Shown one piece after another: positions 1,094-26,836 of a stretch of 35,987 nucleotides of DNA (its first letter is position 1; each line of letters opens with the position of its first letter). The notes under the pieces were generated by a model. That model ran no database searches and was not told the origin of the DNA. It was given only the letters and a program-made list of their open reading frames with translations. Both the position numbers and the translations under genes were made by a program. Origin of the DNA: Clostridiales bacterium (lineage in GTDB: Bacteria > Bacillota > Clostridia > Lachnospirales > Lachnospiraceae); contig JAAYPX010000007.1 in the NCBI GenBank assembly GCA_012519565.1, positions 1 to 35,987 on the forward strand. Reading direction: 5' to 3'.

Positions 1094-1105
1094 GTTTATA
1101 TAAGA

Positions 1106-1165
1106 AGGCCCTTGCAAAATTAATCTGAGTATACAGATATACTCTTTTATATTTTGCAAGGGCCT
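1106..1165. terminator. Bidirectional terminator with a second hairpin in its loop
   Basis: Perfect 15-bp arms AGGCCCTTGCAAAAT (1106-1120) and ATTTTGCAAGGGCCT (1151-1165) enclose a further perfect 7-bp hairpin, GAGTATA/TATACTC (1127-1133 and 1138-1144). It lies between the convergent hydrolase and phosphofructokinase genes, with T-rich flanks on both sides, so it probably ends both transcripts. Confidence 0.85.
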
Positions 1166-1193
1166 CTTTATCTTATTCTAGAACAATCTTATT

Positions 1194-2414: not shown

Positions 2415-2450
2415 CTTAATTTCTCCTTTATATCGGTATTATACTTATGG

Positions 2451-2479
2451 ATTCTATATGCTGAAATAAAAAGTGTCAA
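2451..2479 (-). promoter_or_regulatory. Sigma-A promoter for pfp
   Basis: On the minus strand TTGACA (2474-2479) and TAGAAT (2451-2456) are separated by exactly 17 bp. The site is about 37 bp upstream of the pfp ATG. No clear terminator separates it from the ABC operon upstream, so read-through is also possible. Confidence 0.7.
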
Positions 2480-2521
2480 CCAATTTTTGACTAAAAGATA
2501 ATATTGTCACTATATCGTGCA

Positions 2522-3295
2522 TCAATTTCCACATTCTATGCTTATTTCATTAAACTTTTCCAGTATATCATCTATACTCAAATACTTCTTTTTCTCTGAA
2601 TCACAATCGATAACTATCTCTCCTTGGTGCATCATTATCAGCCTGTTGCCGTACTCCACCGCATATCGAAGATTATGGGTTACCATAATTGTTGTCAGCT
2701 TCTTCTCTGTTACAATCTTATCTGTTAGCTCCATTATTAAATCTGCAGTTTTAGGATCCAATGCCGCCGTATGTTCATCTAAAATCAAAAACTCTATAGG
2801 TGTCATGGTTGCCATAACTAGGGCCATGGCCTGTCTTTGTCCCCCGGATAAAGATCCAACCATAACATCCAACTTATCTTCCAATCCTAGGTTCAAAGCC
2901 CGAAGACAATCCCTATAATAATCAATCCGATTTTTATTGGTCCCCCTTAGAAGATTAAAAGATTTACCCTTGTTGTCGGCTAATGACATATTTTCCAGTA
3001 TCGTCATATTAGGGCAAGTTCCCATAGCAGGATTTTGATATACTCGGCCTATCTTTTTAAGCCGCTTATACTCCTGCCTATGGGTAATATCCTCATCATT
3101 CATAAGAATTCGACCTCGATCTAGAGGAATACTTCCGCATATAAGATTTAACATTGAGGTTTTACCAGAACCATTGCTACCAACTACTGAAACAAACTCT
3201 CTATCTTTAATAATAAAATTAAAATTATTAAACAGGCACATCTCATTAACCGTTCCTGGATTATAATATTTATTGATACTTTCCATCCTAAGCAT
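2522..3295 (-). CDS. trpZ: Tryptophan-type ABC importer, ATP-binding subunit
   Basis: The protein has 257 residues with a complete ABC ATPase motif set: Walker A GSNGSGKT (39-46), signature LSGGQRQAM (149-157), Walker B FLILDEHTAALD (169-180) and a switch His in MVTHN. It should power uptake on the cytoplasmic face together with the permease encoded directly upstream. Its ATG overlaps the permease stop by 8 nt, which suggests translational coupling. DEHTAALD, with His after DE in place of the usual Pro, is a small departure from the common DEPT form. The substrate is assigned from the T-box in front of the operon, not from this protein. The family (partners of PF04392 binding proteins) also includes transporters of unknown substrate. 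Confidence 0.85.
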   Translation of the reverse strand: MLRMESINKYYNPGTVNEMCLFNNFNFIIKDREFVSVVGSNGSGKTSMLNLICGSIPLDRGRILMNDEDITHRQEYKRLKKIGRVYQNPAMGTCPNMTILENMSLADNKGKSFNLLRGTNKNRIDYYRDCLRALNLGLEDKLDVMVGSLSGGQRQAMALVMATMTPIEFLILDEHTAALDPKTADLIMELTDKIVTEKKLTTIMVTHNLRYAVEYGNRLIMMHQGEIVIDCDSEKKKYLSIDDILEKFNEISIECGN

Positions 3296-4199
3296 TAGAC
3301 TTCACCTTCCTTTTCCTATCCTTGCTGATAACCAGAATAAACAAGAACAACGATGCCATTATCAACTTAAGATCCGAAGGATTTAATCCTATGAAAATTG
3401 CTATGGCAACACATAATTTATATAAAACCGCTCCTATAATAACAGCTGTAGTTGTTTTCAGCCAGGTGTTTCTTTTGAAAAGATTTATACCAATTATTAC
3501 ACTGGCTAAACCAATAGTAATGGTTCCCGTTCCTGATGAAATCTCAAAATAACCAACCTTTTGAGCATACACACTACCTGATAATGCTACAAAGGCATTC
3601 GCAATGGAAAGACCAATAATTTTTACCACGCCTTTATCTTTAGCCAAAGATGTAACTAATGTATCATTGTCCCCTGCTGCTCTAAGGAGATAGCCTGATT
3701 TTGTATTTAGATAAAAATCAAGAAGAAGCTTCATTATAATAACAATAACTAATGATATTATAGCTATTTGATAATCCTGCAAAATTGGTGGGAACAACTT
3801 TTTTATTATATCATTTCTAAAAATAGTATCCTGCATGAAAAACGGTAAATTAGCTCGTCCAGCAATTCTTAAATTAATAGAATATAATGCTGTCATCATG
3901 ATTATTCCAGCAAACAAATCCCTTACTTTTAATTTAACATGAATAAGACCAGTTATCATACCTGCTAAAGCACCAACTAAGAAGGATATGAAAAGGGTTG
4001 CCACAGGATTGACTCCTGACACTATTAATATGGCCGTAACAGCCCCTCCCAGGGGAAAGGTCCCATCTACAGACAAATCGGGAAAATCTAATATCCTATA
4101 AGTAATATAAATTCCCAATGCCATAATTGCATATGCAAACCCTTCCTCTAAAGTACCAACTAAAATCGTTTCTAATGTATCCCAAAGATTAACCAACAT
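3288..4199 (-). CDS. trpY: Tryptophan-type ABC importer, permease subunit
   Basis: This hydrophobic protein of 303 residues has about eight or nine predicted membrane segments. The N-terminal block YRILDFPDLSVDGTFPLGGA is characteristic of permeases that pair with PF04392 (TrpX-like) binding proteins and resemble the branched-chain amino-acid permease family (BPD_transp_2). It forms the membrane channel of the importer. It ends in a basic cytoplasmic tail (KDRKRKVKSNA) that overlaps the ATPase start. An A/G-rich Shine-Dalgarno site (GGGAGG) precedes the ATG. It lies in one transcript with the lipoprotein upstream (91-bp gap, no terminator seen) and the ATPase downstream. Substrate identity rests on the T-box specifier. 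Confidence 0.85.
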   Translation of the reverse strand: MLVNLWDTLETILVGTLEEGFAYAIMALGIYITYRILDFPDLSVDGTFPLGGAVTAILIVSGVNPVATLFISFLVGALAGMITGLIHVKLKVRDLFAGIIMMTALYSINLRIAGRANLPFFMQDTIFRNDIIKKLFPPILQDYQIAIISLVIVIIMKLLLDFYLNTKSGYLLRAAGDNDTLVTSLAKDKGVVKIIGLSIANAFVALSGSVYAQKVGYFEISSGTGTITIGLASVIIGINLFKRNTWLKTTTAVIIGAVLYKLCVAIAIFIGLNPSDLKLIMASLFLFILVISKDRKRKVKSNA

Positions 4200-4290
4200 A
4201 CTTTTCTTATCCCTCCCAGGTATTAAACCTATACTTTACTTTGGCAGATATAATATATCAGCCCCTTGAATTATATCATAGCATAAAACA

Positions 4291-5283
4291 CTAGTCAGAA
4301 ATCTCATCAAACATCTCAACCGCATTGGCAACTAGATCCTCAGGTAACTCAATACCCAGTTTCTCTGCAACAGCAGTATTACCATAAAAAGATGCAGCTT
4401 CAATAACTTCAAACTTCATTTCACTGGCCTTTGCCTCACCTTTTAAAATCTTAGCTGCCATCTTCCCTGTCTGTATTCCCAGTTCATAATAATCAAGTCC
4501 CATAGCAGCCAGACAACCTATCTTTACTTGTTCCACTTCGCTACCAAACACCGGTATATTCTTGCTAAATGCCTTCTCTAATATTATTGGTAATGCGCTA
4601 ACTACTGTATTATCTGTTAGGTTGGAAATAACATCCACCTTTCCCAGGATATTATCCGTAGCTAAAGGTATGTCCGCCTGAACAGTTACACCACTTTCTA
4701 TTATCTCAAAGCCATATTTTGGCCCTAATTCCTTATATACTTCAATAGCCGATACGGAATTAACTTCACTGGTACTATATAGAATACCTATTTTCTTAGC
4801 CTCTGGCAATATCTGACGAATCATCATCAGCTGTTCTTCAATAGGAAGTTTATCACTGGTTCCAGTAATATTGCCTGTAGGTGTACCATCTTCATTAGCT
4901 AATTGAGCCAAAACAGGATCTGTAATCGCTGTATAAACCACTGGTAAATCTATATCTCGGGTTGCTCCATATGCACTTTGAGTTATAGGTGTGGCAATTG
5001 TAGCAATCATATCTACTTTCTTAGCTACAAAGTTAGTAATAATCTGATTGGCCAAATCAGTATCGGCTTGGGCATTATGAAAGTCAATTGATAGATTTTC
5101 TCCCTCTACAAAACATTCCTCTGCAAGACCTGCTATGAAGCCTTCCCTACAATTATCCAGAGAACCATGTTCTGCAAACTGTCCGATACCTATAGTCACC
5201 GTTCCTTCTTTTGACTTTTGACAACCTGTTAAAGTACTTAAGGTTAAAGTTAAAATTCCAATTACCAGTAAAAATTTCTTCAT
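4291..5283 (-). CDS. trpX: Tryptophan-type ABC importer, substrate-binding lipoprotein (PF04392 family)
   Basis: The 330 residues begin with a lipoprotein signal peptide: MKKF, a hydrophobic core, then lipobox LTGC with Cys21 as the lipidation site. The mature part matches the two-lobed ABC_sub_bind family, with TVTIGIGQFAEHGSLDNCREGF at its start, ATPITQSA, PVVYTAITDP and a C-terminal ALGLDYYELG-like block. It is the first gene of a lipoprotein-permease-ATPase operon and should capture the ligand outside the membrane. A T-box riboswitch with a UGG specifier controls the operon, so tryptophan is the likely ligand. Related trpXYZ operons in streptococci carry the same regulation. GGGAGG lies just upstream of the ATG. 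Direct evidence for ligand specificity is absent. Confidence 0.87.
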   Translation of the reverse strand: MKKFLLVIGILTLTLSTLTGCQKSKEGTVTIGIGQFAEHGSLDNCREGFIAGLAEECFVEGENLSIDFHNAQADTDLANQIITNFVAKKVDMIATIATPITQSAYGATRDIDLPVVYTAITDPVLAQLANEDGTPTGNITGTSDKLPIEEQLMMIRQILPEAKKIGILYSTSEVNSVSAIEVYKELGPKYGFEIIESGVTVQADIPLATDNILGKVDVISNLTDNTVVSALPIILEKAFSKNIPVFGSEVEQVKIGCLAAMGLDYYELGIQTGKMAAKILKGEAKASEMKFEVIEAASFYGNTAVAEKLGIELPEDLVANAVEMFDEISD

Positions 5284-5315
5284 AGAATAATCCTCCCTTT
5301 TATATGTTTTATTTT

Positions 5316-5353
5316 TATATTTTATCTTTATATTTTATCTTTATATTTATATG
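5316..5353. repeat. 13-bp AT-only tandem repeat in the leader between T-box and trpX
   Basis: TATATTTTATCTT occurs exactly twice in tandem (5316-5328, 5329-5341) and continues as a degenerate third copy. It lies between the T-box terminator and the trpX start. It is probably a replication-slippage tract; no function is evident. Confidence 0.6.
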
Positions 5354-5434
5354 ATTTTTATATATCCTATTTTTATTCTTGGGTCCTATCCTAGTGTAGA
5401 AGCTAATTTATATACAATAAAAGGTAATAAAAAA

Positions 5435-5716
5435 GTCTCAAGTAACATTATACTTGAGACGAATAATAATCCGCGGTACCACTCAATTTGACTAAGCCAA
5501 TTTATCTGACTTAGACCACTCTTTCATATACTAACATATATGCCATATATATATAACGGTTATGGATTCCGTCAACGCCTACTATTACTTCGGGTTGCCC
5601 TCAAAAGCCCATTCAGCTTATAATCATATCGCTTCCCACCTACCAGCGACTCTCTGAAATGTTATTATTAAGCTTACTCCTCTTTCTCAACGGTTTAGCA
5701 TATTAACTTGTTAATT
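5435..5716 (-). ncRNA. T-box riboswitch (tRNA-Trp sensing) controlling the trpXYZ-type importer
   Basis: Read on the minus strand, all main T-box parts are present. Stem I closes with GTTG/CAAC and carries a specifier loop formed by AGTA on the 5' side and GAA on the 3' side. GAA is followed at once by the codon TGG (5609-5611, tryptophan) and a purine. The AGAGAG and GGTGGGAAGCG segments form the upper stem I. The conserved T-box GAGTGGTACCGCGG lies at 5471-5484. The terminator is GTCTCAAGTA/TACTTGAGAC (5435-5444, 5451-5460) followed by a run of T. Uncharged tRNA-Trp should stabilise the antiterminator and switch on the importer. The 5' end is inferred from the promoter. Confidence 0.93.
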
Positions 5717-5722
5717 TACTAA

Positions 5723-5751
5723 ATAATAATACAAGGTCTATCAATTGTCAA
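5723..5751 (-). promoter_or_regulatory. Sigma-A promoter of the T-box / trpXYZ-type operon
   Basis: On the minus strand TTGACA (5746-5751) and TATTAT (5723-5728) are separated by 17 bp. The predicted transcription start, near 5716, lies just before stem I of the T-box. Confidence 0.8.
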
Positions 5752-5776
5752 CCATAAAATAAAATTCTTTATAAAA

Positions 5777-5806
5777 TGGTTGTCGCGGAATTGACTGCGA
5801 CAACCA
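5777..5806 (-). terminator. Terminator of the cotJABC operon
   Basis: Perfect 10-bp arms TGGTTGTCGC (5777-5786) and GCGACAACCA (5797-5806) with a 10-nt loop lie 9 bp beyond the cotJC stop. The minus-strand tail ATTTTATAAAG is T-rich but not a pure run. Confidence 0.75.
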
Positions 5807-5815
5807 AATAACCTC

Positions 5816-6430
5816 TTATTTACATGGCGCTTTATCAAAGGATGGATTAAAGGCATAGAAATTCTTAGAATCCAGTTCATCCTGTATCATTCTTAATGCT
5901 TCACCAAATCTTTGGAAATGTACAATTTCCCTTTCCCTTAGGAATCTAATAGGATCGCAAACTTCTTGATCATGAACCAACCTAAGAATATTATCATAGG
6001 TGGTTCTTGCTTTCTGTTCTGCTGCCATATCTTCAATAAGATCTGTAATAGGATCACCTTTACTCTGGTAATATGATGCAGTAAATGGAGTTCCAGAAGC
6101 AGCCACATGATATAGACCTAATGTATGGTCAACATAGTATTTGTCAAATCCACTTTCAACAATTTGTTGAGGGGATAGGTCCCTAGTTAATTGATGAACG
6201 ATAGCACCAATCATTTCCATGTGCCCCAGTTCTTCTGTTCCAATATCTAGTAAAAGTCCAGCCACCTTACGATTAGTAGTACTCATTGAATACATCTGTG
6301 AAATATATCGCATAGAAGCTGCAAGTTCGCCGTCGGGCCCGCCAAACTGACTTATTATTACCTGCGCCAATTTAGGGTTACATTGTGTGATATTTACAGG
6401 GTGTTGTAATCTTCTTTCATAACTCCACAT
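5816..6430 (-). CDS. cotJC: Spore coat protein CotJC, manganese-catalase family
   Basis: The 204-residue protein starts MWSYERRLQHPVNI and is close to CotJC in length and order. It has a ferritin-like di-metal helical bundle. Likely metal ligands are Glu35 (GELAAS), Glu66/67 and His70 (EELGHMEM), Glu138 (MAAEQKAR) and His171 (EREIVHFQRF), which match the Mn-catalase pattern. It is expected in the inner spore coat and may detoxify peroxide; catalase activity is inferred from family membership. It is the last gene of cotJABC, starting 3 bp after the cotJB stop, and is followed by a hairpin terminator. Its presence is one of the clearest signs that this organism sporulates. Confidence 0.95.
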   Translation of the reverse strand: MWSYERRLQHPVNITQCNPKLAQVIISQFGGPDGELAASMRYISQMYSMSTTNRKVAGLLLDIGTEELGHMEMIGAIVHQLTRDLSPQQIVESGFDKYYVDHTLGLYHVAASGTPFTASYYQSKGDPITDLIEDMAAEQKARTTYDNILRLVHDQEVCDPIRFLREREIVHFQRFGEALRMIQDELDSKNFYAFNPSFDKAPCK

Positions 6431-6433
6431 ACA

Positions 6434-6691
6434 CTAGCACCTACCTTCCCATGGCCATGGATCTCTAACCCATTCCCATTTATTTTCCGAATCTACCATA
6501 TAACTATTCATCGGCCCATAGCACTTTGTATACTCTTCAACCGCTTCATTTCTAATCCTATCCATCCTCTTCCAATACTCTAAAGCTGCCTGGTCAGTGG
6601 GATGTGTATCAAGGAATAGTCTTAGGTCATCCAGTACAAAACTGGTAGCCGTAATACATGCAAATAATTTGTCTTTATTTTTATCATCCAT
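6434..6691 (-). CDS. cotJB: Spore coat protein CotJB
   Basis: The protein has 85 residues and is of CotJB type. It is mostly helical, with FVLDDLRLFLDTHP, YWKRMDRIRNEAVEEY and a conserved aromatic end, WEWVRDPWPWEGRC, typical of the family. CotJB is a small coat component encoded with CotJA and CotJC; its biochemical role is not known. It begins 1 bp after the cotJA stop and ends 3 bp before cotJC, so the three are almost certainly co-translated. No signal peptide or membrane segment is present, which fits assembly in the mother-cell cytoplasm onto the forespore. Confidence 0.93.
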   Translation of the reverse strand: MDDKNKDKLFACITATSFVLDDLRLFLDTHPTDQAALEYWKRMDRIRNEAVEEYTKCYGPMNSYMVDSENKWEWVRDPWPWEGRC

Positions 6692-6692
6692 A

Positions 6693-6992
6693 CTACCTAC
6701 AGCTCCTTCCTAGAAATTCTAAATTTAAATCCTTAAATAAAGTACCATTAGCCAAGGCCACGAACTCGTTTTCATACAGGTTCTCAAATTTTTGCCAAGG
6801 CACATAGCACATTCCTAATGGGAACCTATCGAAATCTTTTTTTCCGCAATCTCTGTCATCATAATTATCTCTTCCACATGATCGTCCCAAATCATAATCA
6901 TTATCGCAGCTAACATTTTTTTGCTTATATGGAGGAACGTTACGGCCACGACCATAGTTGGCCATATTACCACGATACATCCGTCTATCCAT
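6693..6992 (-). CDS. cotJA: Spore coat protein CotJA with a long Arg/Asp/Cys-rich N-terminus
   Basis: The C-terminal half of this 99-residue protein (about 57-96) has the CotJA pattern: FPLGMCYVPWQKFENLY, then ALANGTLFKDLNLEFLG. The N-terminal 55 residues are unusual, rich in Arg, Tyr, Asn, Asp and Gly, with three Cys (SCDND, SCGRD, DCGKK). This low-complexity region resembles coat or crust proteins and could allow disulfide or tyrosine cross-linking; that is inference. AAAGGAG precedes the ATG at a good distance. It is the first gene of cotJABC and the longer ORF in another frame over it is a shadow. A possible mother-cell sigma promoter lies about 50 bp upstream. Confidence 0.9.
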   Translation of the reverse strand: MDRRMYRGNMANYGRGRNVPPYKQKNVSCDNDYDLGRSCGRDNYDDRDCGKKDFDRFPLGMCYVPWQKFENLYENEFVALANGTLFKDLNLEFLGRSCR

Positions 6993-7045
6993 AAATGATC
7001 TCCTTTCCTATACTTATAGCAACCCCTGTGCTTTATTGTTCTATA

Positions 7046-7072
7046 TATATTATGAATCAAGACTAAATCAGT
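7046..7072 (-). promoter_or_regulatory. Possible mother-cell sporulation promoter for cotJABC
   Basis: Minus-strand CATAATATA (7046-7054) fits the sigma-K -10 form CATANNNTA, with AC 16 bp upstream (7071-7072). It also matches six of eight bases of the sigma-E -10. In Bacillus cotJABC is sigma-E dependent, but no good sigma-E -35 is visible here, so the sigma factor is uncertain. Confidence 0.35.
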
Positions 7073-7153
7073 GCCTGTTCCTTTACAAAGAAAGTCCTAA
7101 AATGTATTCTTATATGTGATTTTAAGATATAAAGGTTTTATCCAAGCTAATGA

Positions 7154-7182
7154 TTGACATTAAAATCTGAATAATGTAATAT
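7154..7182 (+). promoter_or_regulatory. Candidate sigma-A promoter for the lipid kinase gene
   Basis: TTGACA (7154-7159) and TAATAT (7177-7182) are separated by 17 bp, about 40 bp before the start codon. The -35 is perfect and the -10 weak. Confidence 0.55.
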
Positions 7183-7221
7183 TTAATTACAACTTATAGT
7201 TTTAATAACAAGGGAGAATGT

Positions 7222-8151
7222 TTGGTGTATCATTTTATAATTAATGCAAAAGCCAGTTCAGGTAAGGGAATAAAATACTGGTGGATAATAAAAAGGGAAT
7301 TAGATAATAGAAATATTAATTACAGAGCATATTTTACTAAACATAGCGGCCACGCTACTAATATAGCGGAGAAAATATGTAAAAGTAATTATGGAACTAA
7401 AAAAATAGTAATTGTCGGCGGTGACGGTACAGTCAATGAAGTAATAAACGGATTACATAACTATAATGAGATTATATTGGGCTATATTCCCTCTGGATCC
7501 AGTAATGATCTGGCTAGAAGTTTAAAAATACCCAAAGATCCCGTTGAAGCTTTAGAAAACATCCTTAAACCAAGGAAATTTCAGTATCTAGATCATGGTA
7601 TGATGGAATATATGAACAATAATATGGCTCCTAGAAAATTCGCCTGCTCCAGTGGTATAGGATATGATGCCAATGTCTGTTATGAGGTACAAAAGTCTAC
7701 TCTTAAGAAGCAATTAAATCGAATCGGAACTGGCAAATTGGTATATTTCCTTATCGCCATCAAACAAGCTCTGGGAATAGATTTTATGGATGCTGAAGTG
7801 ATTATTGACGGAGAGCAAAGATATTTTTATAAGAAAGTTCTTTTGCTATCTGGAATGATACATAAATATGAGGGAGGCGGTCTACCCATGGCTCCTTCTG
7901 CCAATCCCTCCGACGGCAAATTAAATGTAGTTATTGTCCATGGATTAAGTCGGCTGAAGATTTTAGCTTTTTTGCCTACTATTATATTCGGTAAACACAT
8001 TCATGTAAAAGGAGTGGAAACCTTTATATGCTCCAGCGCAGAGATTAAAGCAACTAAAGACATGGCTACTCACACAGATGGAGAAGTACCTGCTATCTGT
8101 TCACATATTAAGTTAAGCAATGTCCCCCATCAAATTCGAATGATAACATAG
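7222..8151 (+). CDS. Diacylglycerol kinase-like lipid kinase (DagK/YegS/BmrU family)
   Basis: This 309-residue cytoplasmic enzyme is of the DAGK_cat family. The nucleotide-binding motif GGDGTVNEV (66-74) and the following GYIPSGSSNDLARSL block are diagnostic. A C-terminal beta-sandwich region contains GGGLPMAPSANPSDGKL and ends with HTDGE, also typical. The likely reaction is ATP-dependent phosphorylation of a lipid such as diacylglycerol, returning it to phospholipid synthesis; the exact lipid cannot be told. The start is TTG at 7222 or GTG at 7225, both after AGGGAG. The ATG at 7218 is in another frame. It lies 15 bp upstream of a VanZ-like membrane gene, so the two are probably co-expressed in envelope lipid metabolism. 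Confidence 0.9.
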   Translation: MVYHFIINAKASSGKGIKYWWIIKRELDNRNINYRAYFTKHSGHATNIAEKICKSNYGTKKIVIVGGDGTVNEVINGLHNYNEIILGYIPSGSSNDLARSLKIPKDPVEALENILKPRKFQYLDHGMMEYMNNNMAPRKFACSSGIGYDANVCYEVQKSTLKKQLNRIGTGKLVYFLIAIKQALGIDFMDAEVIIDGEQRYFYKKVLLLSGMIHKYEGGGLPMAPSANPSDGKLNVVIVHGLSRLKILAFLPTIIFGKHIHVKGVETFICSSAEIKATKDMATHTDGEVPAICSHIKLSNVPHQIRMIT

Positions 8152-16789: not shown

Positions 16790-18112
16790 TTAACCATCAG
16801 TCCTCATAGCCTCTATGGCACTTATCTTGGTCGCCCGTCTAGCTGGAAAATATCCAGATATTAAACCGATCATGATAGCAATAATTAGTGCAATAAAAGG
16901 TAACCAGATTGGTATTATAGAAAATGCTGTATTTTCCATGTTATACATATAATTACCTGACATAAGGGCTTTAAAAATCGGTTCACCAAACTTATTGACA
17001 AGTATTGAGGCCACATACCCCAGGCCAATGCCAATTATTCCTCCAATTAGCCCAATCATTCCAGCTTCAAATAGGAATAACTTTCTTATATCCTTAATTA
17101 CACAGCCCAATACTTTCATGATACCAATCTCTCTGGTTCTTTCGTAAATTGACATAACCATGGTATTGGCAATACTTATTGCAGATACTATCATTGCCAC
17201 TGCACCTAATGCTCCAAGCACCATTTGCAAGGTATCAGATGCCTCGGTTAAAGGGGCTAAGTCACTAACCAAACTATAGGATTTAAAGCCCAGCTCCTCT
17301 ATAGCACTCTGAACCTCTTCAACATGCTTTACATTATCCACGTTAACCATGATACTTTGGTATTGACTAAGGGATTTTAAAGCCTTCTTACGATCTTGCA
17401 ATGACAATGTATTACAGTATTTCATATAGATGCTTTTAAAATACTCCAAATCCATATATGTGTTCCAATTGTAATCACTGTTGGTTTCTTCCATCTTAGC
17501 TATATTCTTTATCGGTAAAGAAAATTCCCTCTGCTGAGCTACAGGATATTCAGAGAACCTTAATACAATTTTTTCTTTTTGTAAATCCAGTTCAATTTCT
17601 TGCCAGAACCTTGATTTAGGATCATAAAATTCAGGGGCATTAGAACCAAAGACAATTACAGATTTATCTTCCTCTGTAGGATATTCCCCAAACTGTAGGG
17701 CTGGAAAGTCAAAATCCTTAAAGGTAGAGCTATCCATAGCAGTTATATATGCCCAACCTTGATATTTACCAGAGTAAAGGTTTGCACTCTTTCTTATAAC
17801 TGGAGACACAGCCCTAACATGGTCTATTGTCTTGATTTTGGCAACAACCTCATCATTAAGTTCTTGTTTCCTGCTTCCAATATAACTACCATCATCATCA
17901 AATTCATATTGGTCAGCATTCACATTAATAGTTGTTAAGCTTCCCCATTGCATAATCTGAGACTGATAATTACTGCCCATTCCAATACCTATTGATATCA
18001 TGATAATAATAGATAGGGTTCCAATTACTACTCCCAATACAGTAAGCAGTGTTCTTGCCTTCCTCCTGGATAGATTCTTTAAACCCATTATAACCAAATC
18101 ACTAATCCTCAT
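16790..18112 (-). CDS. MacB/FtsX-type ABC transporter permease
   Basis: The track start at 18121 is a TTG; I prefer the ATG at 18112, which sits 10 nt after AAGGA and overlaps the small upstream gene by 11 nt, giving 440 residues. The layout is that of MacB/FtsX permeases: one N-terminal membrane helix (TLLTVLGVVIGTLSIIIMIS), a large extracellular domain (about 50-300), then three C-terminal helices with MSIYERTREIGIMKVLGC and a closing FPARRATKISAIEAMR. These proteins work by mechanotransmission and act on substrates outside the membrane rather than moving them through it. It is the last gene of a four-gene unit with the MacB-type ATPase, the 812-residue repeat protein and a 73-residue membrane protein. 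Confidence 0.92.
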   Translation of the reverse strand: MRISDLVIMGLKNLSRRKARTLLTVLGVVIGTLSIIIMISIGIGMGSNYQSQIMQWGSLTTINVNADQYEFDDDGSYIGSRKQELNDEVVAKIKTIDHVRAVSPVIRKSANLYSGKYQGWAYITAMDSSTFKDFDFPALQFGEYPTEEDKSVIVFGSNAPEFYDPKSRFWQEIELDLQKEKIVLRFSEYPVAQQREFSLPIKNIAKMEETNSDYNWNTYMDLEYFKSIYMKYCNTLSLQDRKKALKSLSQYQSIMVNVDNVKHVEEVQSAIEELGFKSYSLVSDLAPLTEASDTLQMVLGALGAVAMIVSAISIANTMVMSIYERTREIGIMKVLGCVIKDIRKLFLFEAGMIGLIGGIIGIGLGYVASILVNKFGEPIFKALMSGNYMYNMENTAFSIIPIWLPFIALIIAIMIGLISGYFPARRATKISAIEAMRTDG

Positions 18113-18323
18113 ATAGGTCAATTCCTTTTTTAATTTTTCGCCTTGCCAATAATGTACCTAAACCTACACTTGCTACCAGTACCGCAACAGAAATCACTAT
18201 AATAAACACCCAGGAAGATAAAAGCGGATCTTTAACTTCTTCTATCCCCATGCCCATAGTAGGGTCTACCATCATTCCTTCTTCAAAGTCAACATAGCCC
18301 TCTTCAACAATATCTATATCCAT
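18102..18323 (-). CDS. Small single-pass membrane protein, linker of the ABC operon
   Basis: I do not recognise this 73-residue protein. It has an acidic, Met/Gly-rich outer segment (EEGMMVDPTMGMGIEEV), one membrane helix (about 36-60) and a short basic cytoplasmic end (ARRKIKKGIDLYED). There is no cleavable signal peptide; the negative-outside, positive-inside charge suggests the N-terminus is outside. GGAGG stands 8 nt before the ATG. It overlaps the permease start by 11 nt, which argues strongly that it is translated and works with the permease. A role as a transporter subunit or link to the large repeat protein is inference. Confidence 0.8.
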   Translation of the reverse strand: MDIDIVEEGYVDFEEGMMVDPTMGMGIEEVKDPLLSSWVFIIVISVAVLVASVGLGTLLARRKIKKGIDLYED

Positions 18324-18366
18324 ATATTTAGCTCCTCCATTCTTCAGGCCTTAACCCCTATTATAT

Positions 18367-20805
18367 TTAAAATTGTTCCTCTTCCTTTTTGCGAAGTTTG
18401 ACTTTATATATGCTAATAATAACTTTTCTAGTAATAACACAAGCTATTAAAAAGAATACTACTTCAATACTAGCAAATAGCCATACTGGTAAGATGGGTT
18501 TTTTAGGCTCTGGTACTTGTGGTGCAAAAACATCATCATAATCAATATCAAAATCATCTTCCCATTTAAGTTCACCCATCACAAATTGTTCAAACTCCTC
18601 AGTTATGGAGAGCTCATCTCCGTTACTATCTTCAAATGTAATAGTTAACACACCTTTAGCTATACCTTCTACCAAAGGTATAACTTCAAACTCTTCATAA
18701 GAAGATGAACCAGCCGTTACATTACCAACAAGGAACATGCTGCCATCGGCTTTTACAAAATCACCACTGACTGTAGCAACCACATTGTTTAATGTGGATT
18801 TACCCATATTATAAAATTCAAAACTTAGAGTAGCAGGATTATTTACTTGTAGATCCCCATCCCAGGAATATACACTTACATAATCTACTACAGGTCGGTA
18901 ATTCTCCACCACTTGTAGATTAAGTTTTTCTGTCTTTGTTACTCCAATCTCTCCTGTCTCAGGATTGGTTGCAGCACCATCAAACTCATAATTTATCTTA
19001 ATATCAATTGGATAGGTTCCTGTGGATGCATCTGCCTTGACCTTAAGCTCTATTGTATTTTGAACAGATTGACCCGGAGTAATTTTATTTATAAAGAAAC
19101 TATTACCTCCTTGAGTGGGAGCAAATACATTCTCATTCTGCGTAATGGTTACAGTAATATTCTTTGCCACTGCTGAAGAGTGAGTATTATGTAAGTCAAA
19201 GGTAAAATTGAAAGTAGATCCTGCCTTAATCTGTTCAACATCAGTAGAGTATTGGCTAACAATTAGCTTAGGCATACTACTGGAATTCTCCGCTTCATTC
19301 TGAACATCAAGTATAGGTATTTTAATAGCCTCACCTTCAGGTTTTCCTTCATAGGTATATCTTATCTCCAAATGGTTTAAACCTTCGTTTATTTGATCTG
19401 ATACCATAAGAGGTATGGTTATTCTTTCCTTGGTACCACCCTTAAGCTCCTCTAAATATATATATGGCTTGGGGTTTCTTGGAATAAAAGTAGTATCTGA
19501 AAGATTATTTAAATAGATTTTTACATCTTTTATATCATACTGACTTTTATTTTCCATATCGAAGGAGACCTCTAGACTCTCTCCTGCCATAGGTTTAGCT
19601 GGCTTTTGGGTTACAGCATCAATAATAATATTTGGCTGAGTTAATATCTCCAAATATATTGTTTTACTGCTTGTTAAGGTCATTCCCAGTTCATTGGTAT
19701 AACTAATATTGAGCTTTAATTCATTTATTCCTCCTGTGATATCCTTGGATACTATTAGAGGTATCTTAACATCTACACTGTCATCTTTTCGTATATTCCT
19801 TACTTCTATTACATCGGTAAAATAATTTTTAATAAATTTATCTGCTCCAATACTAGATGGATCTACTGAGACTGCAACGTCATTTGCCATAGAACCACCA
19901 TAATTACGAATAGTTGCAATCAAGATAAAATCATCGCCAGGCCACAACTCGCCATTATAAGTAACACTGTCAATATCCAGTTTAGGTGCAATATCACCCT
20001 CAGCTACCTCTATTGAAATATTGTAGGTGTCAGTTAGTTCCGTTCCCGCTGCTGTCTTATAAGTAAAATCCACTGGAATAGTTACTACTCCAGTATTGGC
20101 TGTTGGTAAAATCCTTATGGGCAGTGTCACCGCATACTCTTGATTGGGCATCAAATCTCCAATCTTAATCTTCTCAGCTGTATATCTATTAACAATGCCA
20201 TTCTCACCATAATTTAACTTTATGTATATATTATGAGCCTTAATTTCACCTTCATTTTTAATATAAAATGATAGCTCTGTATCATTTCCCAAGTCCGCAT
20301 CCTTGCTGGACACCTTACTGATGGTTAGTTGTGCAGGAGACTTCTCCTCTGTTATTCTTAAATTAATATTTAGAGGAGTTGTTATAGTTGTAAAACCTTC
20401 TTTATCAGCAGAATAAGAATAAGCTTGATATGTAAACTTTAATGTAATAGGATAATATCCAATTTTGGCAGTATCATCAACTATAACATCAAATTTTACA
20501 GCAGTTGTAGCGTCTGCAGTTATACCCGTAGTCACATTATCATAATAGTACAACTGGGGTCTTGATATAGTAAATGGTGTATCGTCCTCTGTTTCTAAAC
20601 TTATCGATACATCAGCTAAATAAGACTTCAATGATTTTATTGGTATTGTTATAGTATTCTTCTCTCCCGGTTTCACAACCAAATCGACATTCTCAGTAGC
20701 TATAACAATAGAATTTTCAGCCTGCACTGTAATATCTTTGCCAAGCACTCCCATTCCCACTAGGAATATGGCAATCGCAGCAATAATGACTTTCTTCATC
20801 CTCAT
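18367..20805 (-). CDS. Large extracellular repeat protein (CARDB/NEW3-like Ig domains) anchored by a C-terminal helix
   Basis: The 812 residues begin with a signal peptide (MRMKKVIIAAIAIFLVGMGVLG...VQA). A long extracellular part follows, made of about six or seven beta-sandwich repeats of roughly 100-120 residues. Repeated features include a start such as P-K/R-L-x-I-x-x-V, an N-x-G or N-K/T/G turn (IKNEGEIKAHNI, IRNYGGSMANDV, MENKSQYDIKDV, LHNTHSSAVAKN, FYNMGKSTLNNV), a hydroxyl-rich strand and L-x-I-x-Y-T. This is the CARDB/NEW3 type found in S-layer-like proteins. One membrane helix (about 776-797) and a basic tail (KVKLRKKEEEQF) place the C-terminus in the cytoplasm. It lies between the ATPase and permease genes and probably forms the outside partner of the ABC complex, in place of a MacA-like adaptor. 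Ligand unknown. Confidence 0.85.
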   Translation of the reverse strand: MRMKKVIIAAIAIFLVGMGVLGKDITVQAENSIVIATENVDLVVKPGEKNTITIPIKSLKSYLADVSISLETEDDTPFTISRPQLYYYDNVTTGITADATTAVKFDVIVDDTAKIGYYPITLKFTYQAYSYSADKEGFTTITTPLNINLRITEEKSPAQLTISKVSSKDADLGNDTELSFYIKNEGEIKAHNIYIKLNYGENGIVNRYTAEKIKIGDLMPNQEYAVTLPIRILPTANTGVVTIPVDFTYKTAAGTELTDTYNISIEVAEGDIAPKLDIDSVTYNGELWPGDDFILIATIRNYGGSMANDVAVSVDPSSIGADKFIKNYFTDVIEVRNIRKDDSVDVKIPLIVSKDITGGINELKLNISYTNELGMTLTSSKTIYLEILTQPNIIIDAVTQKPAKPMAGESLEVSFDMENKSQYDIKDVKIYLNNLSDTTFIPRNPKPYIYLEELKGGTKERITIPLMVSDQINEGLNHLEIRYTYEGKPEGEAIKIPILDVQNEAENSSSMPKLIVSQYSTDVEQIKAGSTFNFTFDLHNTHSSAVAKNITVTITQNENVFAPTQGGNSFFINKITPGQSVQNTIELKVKADASTGTYPIDIKINYEFDGAATNPETGEIGVTKTEKLNLQVVENYRPVVDYVSVYSWDGDLQVNNPATLSFEFYNMGKSTLNNVVATVSGDFVKADGSMFLVGNVTAGSSSYEEFEVIPLVEGIAKGVLTITFEDSNGDELSITEEFEQFVMGELKWEDDFDIDYDDVFAPQVPEPKKPILPVWLFASIEVVFFLIACVITRKVIISIYKVKLRKKEEEQF

Positions 20806-20866
20806 TCTTATTCCCTCGACTTCCTTATAAAATTATTATTGTCTTAATCTTTATCATATTGTTTAT

Positions 20867-21727
20867 CTATGTCTCCAATGCTTCTGGACTGCTCAAAAGA
20901 TGAGGAGCCTGCCTTGTAATATCATCTTCCTCCTGCGATACAGCAGTTTCTTCCGTCATATCATTTAATTCTTCTATTGTAGATTGGGCAGTTTCAGATT
21001 GAGCACTTTCAGACTGGCCAGGCTTAGATGTAACTTCAATTTTTTCCACTCTACCATCTAGAATATGTATGATTTTATCTGCATATTCCGCCATACCTCT
21101 GTCATGGGTTACCATAACTATGGTCTGATTATTTTTCTTAGCCATATCTTTTATTAAATTCATTACCTCTCTAGAGGTCTTAGAATCCAGATTACCTGTA
21201 GGTTCATCGGCAAATACAATTTCGGGATTACCTACAAAGGCCCTAGCTATACCAACTCTCTGCTGTTGACCACCACTCATCTCTTTGGGCTTATGCTTCA
21301 TTCGCTCCCCTAAACCTACCTTAATTAATATATCCCTGGCCAACTTCCTTCTCTTCTTCTTTCTAACATGCTGAAACACCAAAGGTAACTCTACATTCTC
21401 CAAAGCAGTCATCGAATTTAAGAGGTTATAGGACTGAAAGACGAAACCCAGATGTCTTTGCCTAAACTTAGCAAGATTTCTTTCACTCATCTTCCCAATA
21501 TTCTTACCTTTAATATATATCTGCCCACTGGTAAGCTTTTCGATACCCGCCATTAAATTTAATAGAGTCGATTTTCCTGAACCTGATGCCCCAAAAAGGC
21601 AACAAAATTCACCCTTATTAATAGTAAAGCTGGCATTATCCACAGCAGTGATTCGCTCACTACCCATCCGGTATACCTTTCTAGCTTTTTTAACTTCTAT
21701 AATAACTTTTTCGGTCTTACTGTTCAT
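20867..21727 (-). CDS. MacB/LolD-type ABC transporter ATPase with an acidic C-terminal tail
   Basis: The 286-residue cytoplasmic ATPase has Walker A GASGSGKST (46-54), Q-loop FQSYNLL, signature MSGGQQQRVGIARA (150-163), Walker B VFADEPTGNLD (171-181) and switch His in MVTHD. This set is typical of the MacB/LolD/FtsE group, which pairs with FtsX-like permeases such as the one encoded at the end of this operon. Residues from about 235 onward form a tail not found in the core family: Ser/Gln/Glu-rich (SESAQSETAQS) then acidic. The tail may regulate or dock the protein; that is inference. AGGAAGG precedes the ATG. It is first in the four-gene unit. Confidence 0.93.
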   Translation of the reverse strand: MNSKTEKVIIEVKKARKVYRMGSERITAVDNASFTINKGEFCCLFGASGSGKSTLLNLMAGIEKLTSGQIYIKGKNIGKMSERNLAKFRQRHLGFVFQSYNLLNSMTALENVELPLVFQHVRKKKRRKLARDILIKVGLGERMKHKPKEMSGGQQQRVGIARAFVGNPEIVFADEPTGNLDSKTSREVMNLIKDMAKKNNQTIVMVTHDRGMAEYADKIIHILDGRVEKIEVTSKPGQSESAQSETAQSTIEELNDMTEETAVSQEEDDITRQAPHLLSSPEALET

Positions 21728-21906: not shown

Positions 21907-24498
21907 TTAAAAAAGCATTCCAATATTTAAGATTAATCTCCTCCCTATAGATAGATTGCTTTTTAGCTTGCTCCACAGTTCTCTATAAAACTTCTCTACC
22001 TGTTGTAATTCAGTTAAACTTATGCCTTCTCTACCATAACGGGCTTTCCTGGCTATTTCAATGCAAGACAATAAGTCACTCTCATTAATATAGGCATACT
22101 GACCCTCTATCTGGTCTGCTTCTGCTGCATCCTCCAAACTTATTTTATCCTTGGATATAAGGTTAAGGAGAATAAATACCTTCTCTATATCACTATATAG
22201 ATATAAGGCTTTTTTATTATAATTACCGTATGCAGAATTTAGATTTTTTCTACGGAATATAATACGGCTTACCAATACAATTATTAATCCCAATAAGAAT
22301 ACAGCCAATATACTGGCAACTGATAAAAGATTAGATGCCTTATCATCTAATTGCTTCATAGCCTCATGTTCAATTTGCCTATCTGTTTCTCTGGGCAGAT
22401 CTGTTGGTTCTAAGATATCAGTTGGCTCTGGAGCAGCAGTGGGATCAGGAGTGATTGTTAAGGTTGGTGTCAAGCTGCTGGCATCTTCTATTTCATCTTG
22501 TAATAATAACATATCCTCCATAGCCTCTATTGTTCCCTGCACAGCAGATGAAGGCGTGAATTCGATTGGTACCCATCCGCATCCATTAATATATACTTCT
22601 ACCCAAGCGTGGGCGTTATAATCGCTAACAATATACTCTCCATATTCAACCTTCTGGTCCATATAATTAGAATTAGAATAGGTCCTTACATCCTGCTGAC
22701 CTAAATTATTACTCTCCGGGATATTGCCAAGGGCATAACCTTCTACATAGCGGGCAGGAATACCCATGGCTCGTAATATAAGGGTAGCTGCTGAGGCATA
22801 ATGGGCACAATAGCCTAATTTATTTTCATAAAGAAAATACTCTACAAAATCCTCCCCCTGCGGTAGCAAGCCAGGACTTAATGTATATTCAGTACTATTA
22901 TGAAGATAATATTGTACATACTTAATACGTTCCAGCAAACTAGAAGCGTCATTGCGGTCATAGGACATGGAAAAATCATTCTTTAACTGCTCTAATCCTC
23001 TTTCAGGAAGCTTGGTATAGACATCATAGACATAATCCTGATACATTTTCTCAAATTTTATATAATTACTATCCCTTAGATTAAGATTGGGATACCAACT
23101 AGAGCCATAATTATCTTCTATCAATAGATTATAATAAAACATCAGTTCATAAGTATTCTTCCTGCGAACAGGCTTAGCATAAAGATCATCCCTATATTCC
23201 ATATCATCTCTTTTATTAAAGTCTGTAAAATACGGAGCATAGATAAAATCTCTATTGGCATTTATATATTCAATTAGAATCTTACCCTCTTTGAAGCCAT
23301 ATAATCCCTCTGGAAGTGTAAGCCCCTTGTTATACTCCCTAGAGTTATCAAGTATAGAAATGCTTTTTAAAAGCCATGGGATTTGATTCACAGGCCTAAT
23401 ATCCCCATTGGGTATTTTCTTTAGTAAATCTTCATACTTATTTCTAACCTCTTGGGAGGCTTCCGTCCATCTATCCCCCATATACTCTAGGCCCACATAC
23501 CCCTTCAAATACATACCTTTGCCAATAGCCTCCTTGGGCATTCTAAGATGTAAATGCTCTTGCCCTGTATATCTGACTTCCCCTACTCTGCCTAATAGGC
23601 CTCCTCTTAACCCTCCATAGGACTTATCCTTTTCAACCGTTATCTTCCAATCGCTAAACTGATTTGATATATCATCAAAGTTAAGCTCAGTTAGAAAAGT
23701 TTGCAATTCTTCCTTCTTCTCAGGTATATAGGTTACCTTGTAATAATCCTCTGGAGCAAATAGGAGTCTTATAATTGCCATTATTCCTAAGCTAATAGCG
23801 CACAGCAGGATGGCAACATTTGTATTAACCCTTTCAGCATTTATTCTCTCTGCCTTCTGCATACTATGAAATCTTGGCCCCTGCAGCTTTAGCATAAATA
23901 ATAAAACAATCATTAATGTTATCAGATAAACACCTGAAGGTACTAAGCCAACCAAAAAATTGGGCGCCACTGGTATTATCATAATTACAACACAAAGATT
24001 AATCATCCATCCCCGTAACATAGACATGGTAAGAAGAGCAATAATTGGTATCATTATTGCTATGATAACTAGGGTGACATCCTCATACATACGGCTGTAA
24101 TCAGCTACATATTTTATAATATTAACTTCATAGTAATCATTAATTTTATTTATAGCAAAATTTTCAAAGATATAAAAACCATTTTCAAACTGTTTCCATC
24201 TCTTACTTAGAAAAAAGGCGTAGACCAGTAGTAGAGATAATATCTTCCATATGCCATAGGCTTTCCCTCTAAATAGAAAATACATTATTAGGCAGGCAAT
24301 AAAGGCCACCGCATTTAAACTAATAAATGACACTGGAAGATCAAAGGTCTCTACTAAAATAGAAATTATTGACCAATTCCCCATAAAGATAGCAATAAAT
24401 TGGGTGAACATTAAATATAAGGGGTATCGCCCCCCTTTAGAATTTATACTATTTAGATTAGCTTTGATGCTTATACCATCCTTCATGCTATAGCTCAT
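21907..24498 (-). CDS. Membrane-anchored transglutaminase-like protein (TgpA type, DUF3488/DUF4129 layout)
   Basis: The 863 residues start with about six membrane helices (25-245). An extracellular region follows, with a papain-fold transglutaminase core at about 525-660. A Thr/Pro-rich linker (TPTLTITPDPTAAPEPTD) comes next, then a further helix (about 722-748) and a cytoplasmic DUF4129-like tail. Catalytic residues are Cys563 in LGYCAHYAS, His630 in NAHAWVEVY and Glu646 in GWVPIEFTPS, where many relatives have Asp. Such proteins occur with MoxR ATPases and DUF58 proteins, as here, and are thought to cross-link or cleave envelope proteins; the substrate is unknown. It is last of the moxR-DUF58-transglutaminase group and starts 14 bp after the DUF58 gene. 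Confidence 0.92.
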   Translation of the reverse strand: MSYSMKDGISIKANLNSINSKGGRYPLYLMFTQFIAIFMGNWSIISILVETFDLPVSFISLNAVAFIACLIMYFLFRGKAYGIWKILSLLLVYAFFLSKRWKQFENGFYIFENFAINKINDYYEVNIIKYVADYSRMYEDVTLVIIAIMIPIIALLTMSMLRGWMINLCVVIMIIPVAPNFLVGLVPSGVYLITLMIVLLFMLKLQGPRFHSMQKAERINAERVNTNVAILLCAISLGIMAIIRLLFAPEDYYKVTYIPEKKEELQTFLTELNFDDISNQFSDWKITVEKDKSYGGLRGGLLGRVGEVRYTGQEHLHLRMPKEAIGKGMYLKGYVGLEYMGDRWTEASQEVRNKYEDLLKKIPNGDIRPVNQIPWLLKSISILDNSREYNKGLTLPEGLYGFKEGKILIEYINANRDFIYAPYFTDFNKRDDMEYRDDLYAKPVRRKNTYELMFYYNLLIEDNYGSSWYPNLNLRDSNYIKFEKMYQDYVYDVYTKLPERGLEQLKNDFSMSYDRNDASSLLERIKYVQYYLHNSTEYTLSPGLLPQGEDFVEYFLYENKLGYCAHYASAATLILRAMGIPARYVEGYALGNIPESNNLGQQDVRTYSNSNYMDQKVEYGEYIVSDYNAHAWVEVYINGCGWVPIEFTPSSAVQGTIEAMEDMLLLQDEIEDASSLTPTLTITPDPTAAPEPTDILEPTDLPRETDRQIEHEAMKQLDDKASNLLSVASILAVFLLGLIIVLVSRIIFRRKNLNSAYGNYNKKALYLYSDIEKVFILLNLISKDKISLEDAAEADQIEGQYAYINESDLLSCIEIARKARYGREGISLTELQQVEKFYRELWSKLKSNLSIGRRLILNIGMLF

Positions 24499-24512
24499 AG
24501 ATTACCACCACT

Positions 24513-25748
24513 TTAAAATAAATTTAGCTGTTCAATATTCTCCTTTAAATTTTCAATATACACTGGAACGATATGAATATCCATATTATCTAGTAAATCA
24601 CTAATCTCTTGTCTAAGCCGTGGCTTAGAATAATTATTCTCAACTTCTTCTAAATCAGTAGCTTCCTGAACATGGATAATAGATCCTCCTTTAACATTAA
24701 GCCCAGACAGAGAATACAGCTCTTTATTGTCAACCATACTAGTAATATAGTAAAAGTTGGTATAATAATCATGGGGAAACTCTGAGACATATTGTAAAAT
24801 CACATCATTATTGGCTGAGTTTGATGCCATTAACAATAAATTACCTGTGGCTTCATATAGGTCTTTTTCATTCTCAATTCGAACCCTATGGCATGTTTTG
24901 TTGTGATTATCATACCAAGCAAGATAATGAACTACTCCATTTATCATGTAAGTAAAAGAAAGGGACAAAGCACTTTCCAAAAGTCCGTCCATATATGCAA
25001 TAAGCTCTTTATCTTCTGGTACTTTAAGATCCATAAAAATCAAAATATTACAATTAATAGGATCGCTGAATTCTTTGATCATCAACTGATTCTGCTTTAT
25101 ACTTAATTTCCAATGTATCTTCTGCATCTTATCCCCTTCCCTGTATTCACGAATATCAAATACTTCAGAAGGGTCATCCCCGCCTCTGCTGTTAGAATAA
25201 ATCTCACTTTCCACTGGAATAGTTGTTTGATAGCCTAAATCTGGATTTAATACTTCGTAGAAGCTGGGTAAAATAGACACATTTATATCCCTTTTTATTC
25301 TTTTATTAATAGAAAAAACTTTGAAATAATCATATAGTTTTATATTTTTAAGGGATATAGCTATATTACCTATATAGTTTGAGCTGATATCTAAAGTAAG
25401 GGTACTATCTTTCAAGGGGCTAACAGAAGTAATATAGGTGTATTTGCTTATCTTTTTTGTCAATGTATTACCTAATGTAAGAACAATTTTAACATTGGCA
25501 ATTGGAAAAATAGTAGGATTGTGCAGCTGTACTAACAAAGGACTAGGTTCCCCTTTGCCCACTACATAGGAAGTGGTTATTAACTGAGCCTTTATCCTCC
25601 CTTTAATATACATATGGATACCTAAAGATACTAAAGGAAGAAGTAAGATGGTCATAAAAATAAGCAGCATAATATATTCATTATAAAGTATAGATAAAAC
25701 CCAGGATATTATCAGTAATAATAAATACTTTATTTTATTTCTAAACAT
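24513..25748 (-). CDS. DUF58 membrane protein
   Basis: The 411-residue protein has two N-terminal membrane helices (about 8-45) and a beta-rich middle part (about 60-170). The DUF58 core is marked by GGDDPSEVFDIREYREGDKM followed by IHWKLSIKQNQLMIKEF. After that comes a von Willebrand A-like segment beginning ILIFMDLKVP, where a metal-site DxSxS motif is not obvious. DUF58 proteins are encoded next to MoxR ATPases in most bacteria and are believed to be their chaperone or assembly partners, but no biochemical role is proven. It lies 39 bp after the moxR stop and 14 bp before the transglutaminase gene, clearly one operon. Confidence 0.92.
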   Translation of the reverse strand: MFRNKIKYLLLLIISWVLSILYNEYIMLLIFMTILLLPLVSLGIHMYIKGRIKAQLITTSYVVGKGEPSPLLVQLHNPTIFPIANVKIVLTLGNTLTKKISKYTYITSVSPLKDSTLTLDISSNYIGNIAISLKNIKLYDYFKVFSINKRIKRDINVSILPSFYEVLNPDLGYQTTIPVESEIYSNSRGGDDPSEVFDIREYREGDKMQKIHWKLSIKQNQLMIKEFSDPINCNILIFMDLKVPEDKELIAYMDGLLESALSLSFTYMINGVVHYLAWYDNHNKTCHRVRIENEKDLYEATGNLLLMASNSANNDVILQYVSEFPHDYYTNFYYITSMVDNKELYSLSGLNVKGGSIIHVQEATDLEEVENNYSKPRLRQEISDLLDNMDIHIVPVYIENLKENIEQLNLF

Positions 25749-25787
25749 GGTTCACCTGTACCTTTCAGGTTCAATTCTTACCTAACA

Positions 25788-26735
25788 TTACCTATTACTA
25801 AGTCTTGGTGGCCTTACCATCTTCAATATATCATCTAAAAGGTTGTCCACAGTTACATTATTTACCCTGGCTTTGGCCTTTAATATCATTCTGTGGGAGA
25901 CAACATCTTTAAAAACATACTGAACATCCTGTGGTATAGCAAAATCTCTATCATTTAAAAATGCTGTTGCTTTGACCATATTCATTAAGGCTAAGGATCC
26001 TCTTGGGCTAACACCTAATTCAATCAGAGGATTCTCCCTGGTTTTTTGCACCAGATTGGTAATGTATTCATAGATAGAATCATGGATATATACTGATTCT
26101 ACACTTTTTTGCATATGCAAGATTTCAGCTCCATCGGCAACTTGGACAACCTTATTTAGTGGATTAGTATTCTGCCTTTCTTTCAGCAATGTAATCTCAC
26201 TCTTTATATCCGGATATCCCATGGTTAACCTAATCATAAAGCGGTCTAGTTGTGATTCTGGTAGCATCTGTGTTCCTACAGACCCAATAGGATTTTGTGT
26301 CGCAATTACAAGGAAAGGTTTTGGCACTTCTCTTGTTATACTGTCTACAGTTACTTTCCCTTCCTCCATAACCTCCAGTAAGGCAGACTGTGTCTTAGAG
26401 GATGTCCTATTGATCTCATCTGCTAGAAACAGATTACACATAATTGCTCCAGGTCTATATTGATAGCTTTCCCCATCCATATCTAATAGGTGAAAACCAA
26501 CCACATCTGTAGGTAGTACATCTGGGGTAAATTGTAAACGATTATGTTCTAAAGCCATGGCTTTGGAGAAGGCTAGGGCCAAGGTGGTCTTTCCTACACC
26601 AGGGTTATCCTCCAGCAGAATATGCCCCTTAGCCAGAATGGCAGTTAGTACTTTGATAATAATATTATTTTTCCCGATAACAACTTTATTTACTTCATTC
26701 ATTATTAATCTAGCTTTATCAGCGTATAAAACCAT
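25788..26735 (-). CDS. MoxR-family AAA+ ATPase
   Basis: The track ORF begins at 26834, but the first 33 residues do not look like a MoxR start. A GGGAGA site stands in front of the ATG at 26735, giving 315 residues that begin MVLYADKARLI. Walker A (EDNPGVGKTTLA), Walker B (LADEINR), sensor 1 (VIATQNPIG) and arginine-rich C-terminal motifs (SPRGSLALMN) are all present. MoxR ATPases act as chaperones that assemble or activate partner proteins, usually DUF58 or VWA proteins encoded beside them, as seen here. It heads the moxR-DUF58-transglutaminase operon and is divergent from the PrsA-like gene. Confidence 0.93.
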   Translation of the reverse strand: MVLYADKARLIMNEVNKVVIGKNNIIIKVLTAILAKGHILLEDNPGVGKTTLALAFSKAMALEHNRLQFTPDVLPTDVVGFHLLDMDGESYQYRPGAIMCNLFLADEINRTSSKTQSALLEVMEEGKVTVDSITREVPKPFLVIATQNPIGSVGTQMLPESQLDRFMIRLTMGYPDIKSEITLLKERQNTNPLNKVVQVADGAEILHMQKSVESVYIHDSIYEYITNLVQKTRENPLIELGVSPRGSLALMNMVKATAFLNDRDFAIPQDVQYVFKDVVSHRMILKAKARVNNVTVDNLLDDILKMVRPPRLSNR

Positions 26736-26836
26736 AATATTCTCCCGTCTATCATAAATAATTATTGTACATTTCTCACTTATGATGAACATTATATCAT
26801 ATTTATGGCAGATTACAATTATCTCTCTTGCCATTC

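Follow-up and report, generated by a model that had tools for sequence, protein, structure and literature searches.

A CARDB/NEW3 Ig-chain protein is the constant genetic partner of a YtrF-like ABC permease lineage and may stand in for the HlyD adaptor

Introduction

What, if anything, takes the place of the HlyD/MacA adaptor in a MacB-type ABC locus that encodes none? The question is raised by four genes on the minus strand of the window (the whole stretch of DNA that was analysed, 35,987 nucleotides), which encode, in order, an ATPase, a large CARDB/NEW3 protein, a small single-pass protein and an FtsX/MacB permease (Table 1). An earlier note on this DNA had described them as a MacB-type system in which the repeat protein, together with a small membrane protein, occupies the place of MacA. 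Gene coordinates and Pfam matches agree with that note on the four genes, on their order and on the 812- and 73-residue lengths of the two products between ATPase and permease; the overlap of the last two genes is exactly 11 nt, and no HlyD/MacA gene was found in the neighbourhood of the four.

Composition of the locus

Table 1. Features of the locus, in coordinates of the window
Feature	Coordinates	Strand	Remarks
ABC ATPase subunit, 286 aa	20867..21727	-	Pfam ABC_tran; Walker A, MSGGQ signature, H-loop; acidic C-terminal extension
CARDB/NEW3 extracytoplasmic subunit, 812 aa	18367..20805	-	signal peptide, six predicted Ig-like domains, disordered acidic linker, C-terminal membrane helix
CARDB protein domains D5-D6, membrane-proximal, residues 511-744	18574..19275	-	conservation peak; common to all relatives
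CARDB protein C-terminal linker, membrane helix and tail, residues 745-812	18367..18573	-	profile match to small protein
Small single-pass protein, 73 aa	18102..18323	-	acidic G/M-rich N-terminal part, one membrane helix, basic tail ending LYED
11-nt overlap of small gene and permease gene	18102..18112	-	end codons and stop of small protein coincide with permease start (MRI..)
AAAAAAGGA, putative Shine-Dalgarno of permease	18123..18131	-	encodes KKG of small-protein tail; 10 nt 5' of ATG
FtsX/MacB-type (YtrF-like) permease, 440 aa from ATG	16790..18112	-	four membrane helices; extracytoplasmic domain of ~220 residues after helix 1

In Pfam, the ATPase matches ABC_tran (5.7e-35), the 812-residue protein NPCBM_assoc/NEW3 (1.3e-12) and CARDB (6.8e-9), and the permease FtsX (1.8e-20) and MacB_PCD (1.2e-14). 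The CARDB and/or NPCBM_assoc matches of the 812-residue protein exceed the gathering score, and these families name domains rather than a transporter subunit; the small protein matches no Pfam family above cut-off. Models of defence systems gave generic ABC matches only. The window comes from an incomplete genome assembly of 2.77 Mb, spread over 269 contigs and 90% complete.

Genes for MoxR, DUF58 and transglutaminase proteins, with cytidylate kinase-like and AI-2E family genes, lie upstream in the window (21907-26834). Their position is kept in several relatives (L096, L112, L115, L116 and L125), which looks like vertical synteny. The MoxR-DUF58-transglutaminase operon was considered as a component of the system and rejected, being absent beside most of the loci described below.

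A conserved three-gene unit

The permease occurs in 45 of 120 genomes of the same family, in 47 copies (E up to 1e-50), and each of the 47 has a CARDB match within 1 kb. Within the same 120 genomes the permease adjoins all 46 CARDB matches at E 1e-60 or better; weaker matches (E 1e-60 to 1e-30) lack it in 13 of 14 cases, and those inspected are NEW3-type proteins near other genes. The CARDB protein is the constant genetic partner of the YtrF-like permease lineage.

Matches to the CARDB partner were also found in 86 of 391 genomes sampled from the class and 65 of 399 sampled from the phylum, that is, in about a sixth to a fifth of genomes. Across class and phylum, 38 of 40 neighbourhoods keep the order ATPase, CARDB protein, permease, among them one (L246) in which a one-helix gene is inserted. 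Of the two exceptions, one (L233) shows CARDB and permease genes with the ATPase not called, and the other (L270) has neither ATPase nor permease beside the CARDB gene; neighbourhood genes were called by a simple script and such lone exceptions may be artefacts. Named relatives include Herbinix, Anaerocolumna, Mobilisporobacter, Anaeromicropila, Catonella and Acidaminobacter. In L263 the trio is extended by a further CARDB gene, unlike the first, downstream of the permease gene.

Since it is conserved in many otherwise unrelated neighbourhoods, this trio is far beyond chance. The general unit is ATPase, CARDB protein and permease, and the small gene is specific to one clade. The four-gene machine of the earlier note is thus not upheld as such, the small gene being missing from most relatives; of its gene order, the three-gene core recurs across genomes and the fourth member often does not. 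In the literature searched, to which subscription papers mostly do not belong, no description of the trio was found, nor any of CARDB/NEW3 proteins (NPCBM-associated, COG1361) with an FtsX permease. The trio is real, widespread and apparently undescribed as a system, and it belongs to the type VII ABC kind.

A YtrF-like permease and a MacB/LolD-class ATPase

A profile search of solved structures with the permease placed YtrF of YtrEF (9o9x) first, at 214 bits over residues 1-440, and MacB next, at 156 bits. The AlphaFold model of the permease, built from 72 sequences (pLDDT 85.6), again found YtrF as best fold match (E 7.5e-22, TM 0.67), followed by LolE and MacB. The protein has the build of type VII ABC permeases, with four helices of FtsX type, the first two separated by a large outer domain, and is the sole four-helix permease of its type found in its own genome. 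The ATPase is of the MacB/LolD class, with intact Walker A, MSGGQ and H-loop motifs and the Walker B sequence VFADEP. Its C-terminal extension, acidic in the window, is highly variable in length (proteins of ~236 to 424 aa; L031, L149, L170).

LolCDE/LolDF form the second-best fold family for the permease, which the lolCE model scores at 66 bits, far below its cut-off of 362. To our knowledge, neither an outer membrane nor LolA is expected in the lineage of the window.

YtrEF of Bacillus subtilis (PDB 9o9x/9o9y; ytrGABCDEF operon) is the best full-length match of the permease in both profile and fold, and like the locus it combines a separate ATPase with a four-helix permease. The ytr operon differs from the locus in having no known CARDB subunit, in encoding YtrA, YtrB, YtrC and YtrD, and in the upstream position of its small gene, ytrG (PMC12772383, PMC8060467). 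YtrE2F2 has been observed experimentally, and the operon is switched on when the lipid II cycle is inhibited (PMC12772383). Neither a YtrA-type regulator nor a YtrBCD operon was found at the locus, and among the neighbourhoods only L246 is somewhat similar: there (674-7877), an ABC ATPase, a 649-residue eight-helix protein and a GntR regulator directly precede ATPase, CARDB protein, a 76-residue one-helix protein and permease, an arrangement like that of a ytr-type operon whose second half is the CARDB trio.

The fold of the permease also raises the possibility of signalling in the manner of FtsEX, in which the permease would switch a wall enzyme or an adhesin at the cell surface through the CARDB arm and transport nothing. 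FtsEX with SweDC shares with the locus an FtsX-type permease and single-pass co-factors, two of which, SweC and SweD, are required by FtsEX of B. subtilis (PMC6705773), and the wall is thicker when the ytr operon is overexpressed (PMC8060467). However, SweC and SweD have a type II topology and carry cytoplasmic domains, whereas the small protein of the locus is predicted to be N-out with a short tail; the FtsX family model gives the permease 52 bits, far below its cut-off of 225, and no constant wall-enzyme neighbour was seen among the partly annotated trio neighbourhoods. We regard this alternative as unlikely.

HlyD adaptors lie elsewhere and beside other pumps

MacAB-TolC and the Gram-positive MacAB systems (SpMacAB, YknWXYZ) resemble the locus in their type VII ABC fold, in a three- or four-part operon and in an extracytoplasmic partner gene that adjoins the motor genes. 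YknWXYZ includes an extra membrane protein, YknW. The locus differs from these systems in the absence of an HlyD adaptor, in a separate permease branch and in an Ig-chain partner with a C-terminal anchor. At the trio loci sampled, no HlyD/MacA adaptor is encoded with the permease, as it is in MacAB/YknXYZ. In a quick tree of 52 rows, permeases linked to CARDB genes and permeases linked to HlyD genes are split with a support of 100; the window permease falls outside the adaptor-linked branch, in which a MacAB/YknXYZ permease would be expected.

An adaptor encoded elsewhere could nevertheless serve the trio, and the earlier note had named co-variation of such a gene with the permease as evidence against its proposal. 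At the level of genomes there is an excess: HlyD adaptors (E 1e-20) occur in 37 of 45 genomes with the trio and in 27 of 75 others (p 7e-7, uncorrected for kinship or genome size), a difference that may reflect genome size and kinship. Against such a role, eight trio genomes, each at least 95% complete, have no HlyD match at E 1e-20, and in each of 20 trio genomes the adaptor that was inspected lies beside other pump-like genes, never beside the trio. The neighbours of these adaptors are a large multi-helix protein or an FtsX permease of ~400 residues, usually with an ATPase of its own. An adaptor shared with other pumps may still be compatible with the genome-level co-occurrence, for which linkage alone leaves room.

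In the genome of the window, HlyD-type proteins are found in two clusters, on contigs other than that of the window. The first, on contig C158 (L087: 423-8259), encodes three different HlyD-type adaptors in tandem, with a 941-residue FtsX-like permease and two ATPases downstream; the second, on contig C5 (L086: 1-4649), is cut by the contig end and, up to that point, has the same layout. A triple-adaptor cassette is unusual, and this genome has two copies.

The CARDB protein as a predicted tethered Ig chain

The model of the CARDB protein (pLDDT 84, pTM 0.37) consists of a signal helix, six Ig-like domains and a C-terminal helix, with a disordered linker at residues 749-768. A PDB search by sequence and fold returned nothing specific for the chain. 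Among relatives its length ranges from 304 to 1033 residues. Of the 79 alignment columns that reach at least 90% conservation across 40 relatives, 58 fall in D5-D6. A conserved base with a variable tip suggests that the base, D5-D6, contacts the permease.

In ordinary ATPase-adaptor-FtsX cassettes of the same genomes, the HlyD adaptor gene holds the operon slot that the CARDB gene holds in the trio. This shared slot and the constancy of the partner are what one would expect of a MacAB-like exporter in which the CARDB chain, arranged around the permease, would build or direct the way out, with the small protein as seal or coupling. In Gram-positive MacAB, moreover, the membrane helix and cytoplasmic region of the adaptor are needed for ATPase stimulation (PMC5985334), a role that could fall to the CARDB anchor and the small protein. 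The predicted structure argues otherwise: the modelled chain is a string of six beads without barrel, lipoyl or hairpin domains, its length varies widely, and its anchor is C-terminal, not N-terminal. A MacA-like conduit is therefore structurally unlikely as far as the model goes, and we hold the exporter reading to be quite unlikely.

The multi-Ig architecture and variable length are also those of surface proteins, and the CARDB protein might itself be a surface or adhesion cargo that the ABC pair puts in place, the operon having no other job. Conservation is highest in the membrane-proximal part and not at the tip, and linkage to one permease branch throughout the phylum is tighter than would be expected of cargo; this seems to us very unlikely. 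The proposal that the repeat protein takes the adaptor's place thus keeps three points in its favour, namely constant partnership, operon slot and separate permease branch, and is weakened as regards the conduit function that MacA would imply.

The small protein probably derives from the CARDB anchor

Of the 80 loci that make up the closest set, 57 have the small gene; in nearly all of the other 23, the CARDB gene runs directly into the permease gene. The small gene is confined to one Lachnospiraceae clade, and its presence changes four times on a tree of 109 permeases, which, the root not being inferred, is best read as about one gain and about three losses. Just outside this clade, another one-helix gene, that of L246, occupies the same slot.

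In profile-profile comparisons, the small protein scores 36.3 against the C-termini of coexisting CARDB proteins and 41.0 against those of relatives that lack the small gene, similar to the 40.1 of a positive control in which two sets of CARDB anchors were compared with each other. Block-shuffled controls gave means of 14.9 (sd 2.6) and 19.3 (sd 3.5), with maxima of 20.8 and 26.7, and reversed and permease C-terminal controls gave 13.7 to 21.6 (permease 21.6), so that the similarity exceeds what composition yields. The small protein is most likely a duplicate of the 3' end of the CARDB gene, that is, of the C-terminal anchor, although a short membrane anchor makes a weaker case for homology than a globular domain. 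Such an origin would explain why the small gene, and not the CARDB gene, overlaps the permease start. It does not fit a small membrane protein in place of MacA, as the earlier note had it, since the protein matches the CARDB anchor and is limited to a clade.

The claim rests on linker and helix, not on the tail: the similar ends (..DLYENF) of some CARDB proteins from loci without the small gene were set aside as proof of homology, this region being tied to permease start signals. Loss of the small gene by fusion to the CARDB gene is not supported, as most anchors from loss lineages have the CARDB anchor, and not the small protein, as their better-scoring match. Within the clade, long CARDB linkers occur in 17 of 19 proteins from loci without the small gene and in none of 54 with it; compensation for the loss by a longer linker is a lead only, with three independent events and a pattern that fails outside the clade.

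The membrane helix of the small protein, outside the overlap, is under protein-level selection as judged from a dN/dS of 0.10 (24 pairs, synonymous sites near saturation). By the positive-inside rule, the N-terminal part would lie outside and the basic tail inside. In relatives, small proteins reach 245 residues and the outer part is ~23% acidic; in L034 (7673-8209) and L035 (7426-7968) this part owes its expansion to near-perfect repeats (EGEEVT.., EGETSEEG..).

Translation signals inside the small gene

The overlap with the permease start measures exactly 11 nt in 53 of 58 small genes. The KKG codons of the tail are AAA AAA GGA in most of them, and synonymous change is lower at the tail (pS 0.36 vs 0.64). 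The constancy of the tail is explained in part by the permease start signals that lie inside it; the view that the invariant IKKGI.LYED tail reflects pure protein function was kept in part only, since this stretch holds the Shine-Dalgarno and start codon of the permease. In L128 and L153 there is no overlap, and apparent new ribosome-binding sites have arisen. That the small gene is a mere leader for translational coupling, carrying these permease signals and encoding an idle product, would account for overlap, codons and reduced synonymous change, but is highly improbable given the selection on the helix beyond the overlap and the retention of tail residues in these two lineages, with synonymous changes in L153.

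Proposed mechanism

We consider it probable, with moderate confidence, that the locus encodes a mechanotransmission ABC system of type VII (MacB/YtrF-like), in which a dedicated, tethered Ig-chain subunit replaces the HlyD adaptor and its anchor has been duplicated. The motor would consist of two ATPases and two four-helix permeases, as in the family. In the MacB family, the established mechanism links the binding of ATP to motion of the outer domain (PMC5985334); by analogy, ATP binding and release would move the 220-residue outer domain of the permease, and this motion would be handed on to the CARDB protein, whose D5-D6 would receive the stroke. The outer Ig domains may reach the wall zone and act there on an envelope client or a substrate. 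With the small protein, the permease would have another linker, helix and basic tail at its side, and the end of the small gene carries the permease start signals. If Gram-positive MacAB is a guide, the CARDB anchor, with its copy in the small-gene clade, would assume the ATPase-coupling role of the adaptor.

A bolder form of this proposal, in which a MacB-type motor works across the thick monoderm wall through a tethered multi-Ig lever of variable length in place of an adaptor tube, with the duplicated anchor as a tunable coupling, is tentative and somewhat doubtful.

Significance

A MacB-type ABC system is defined by the work of its outer partner. Here an entire lineage of permeases is constantly paired with an Ig chain, and no adaptor is linked to it. 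The trio offers a direct test of how far mechanotransmission extends beyond the partners of MacA, Lol and FtsX type. It also includes a membrane subunit whose apparent origin is a copy of the anchor of another subunit, and within whose gene lie the signals that start translation of the following one. If the bolder proposal is true, the Ig lever would add one more class of partner to type VII systems, next to HlyD tubes and the hydrolase activators bound by FtsX.
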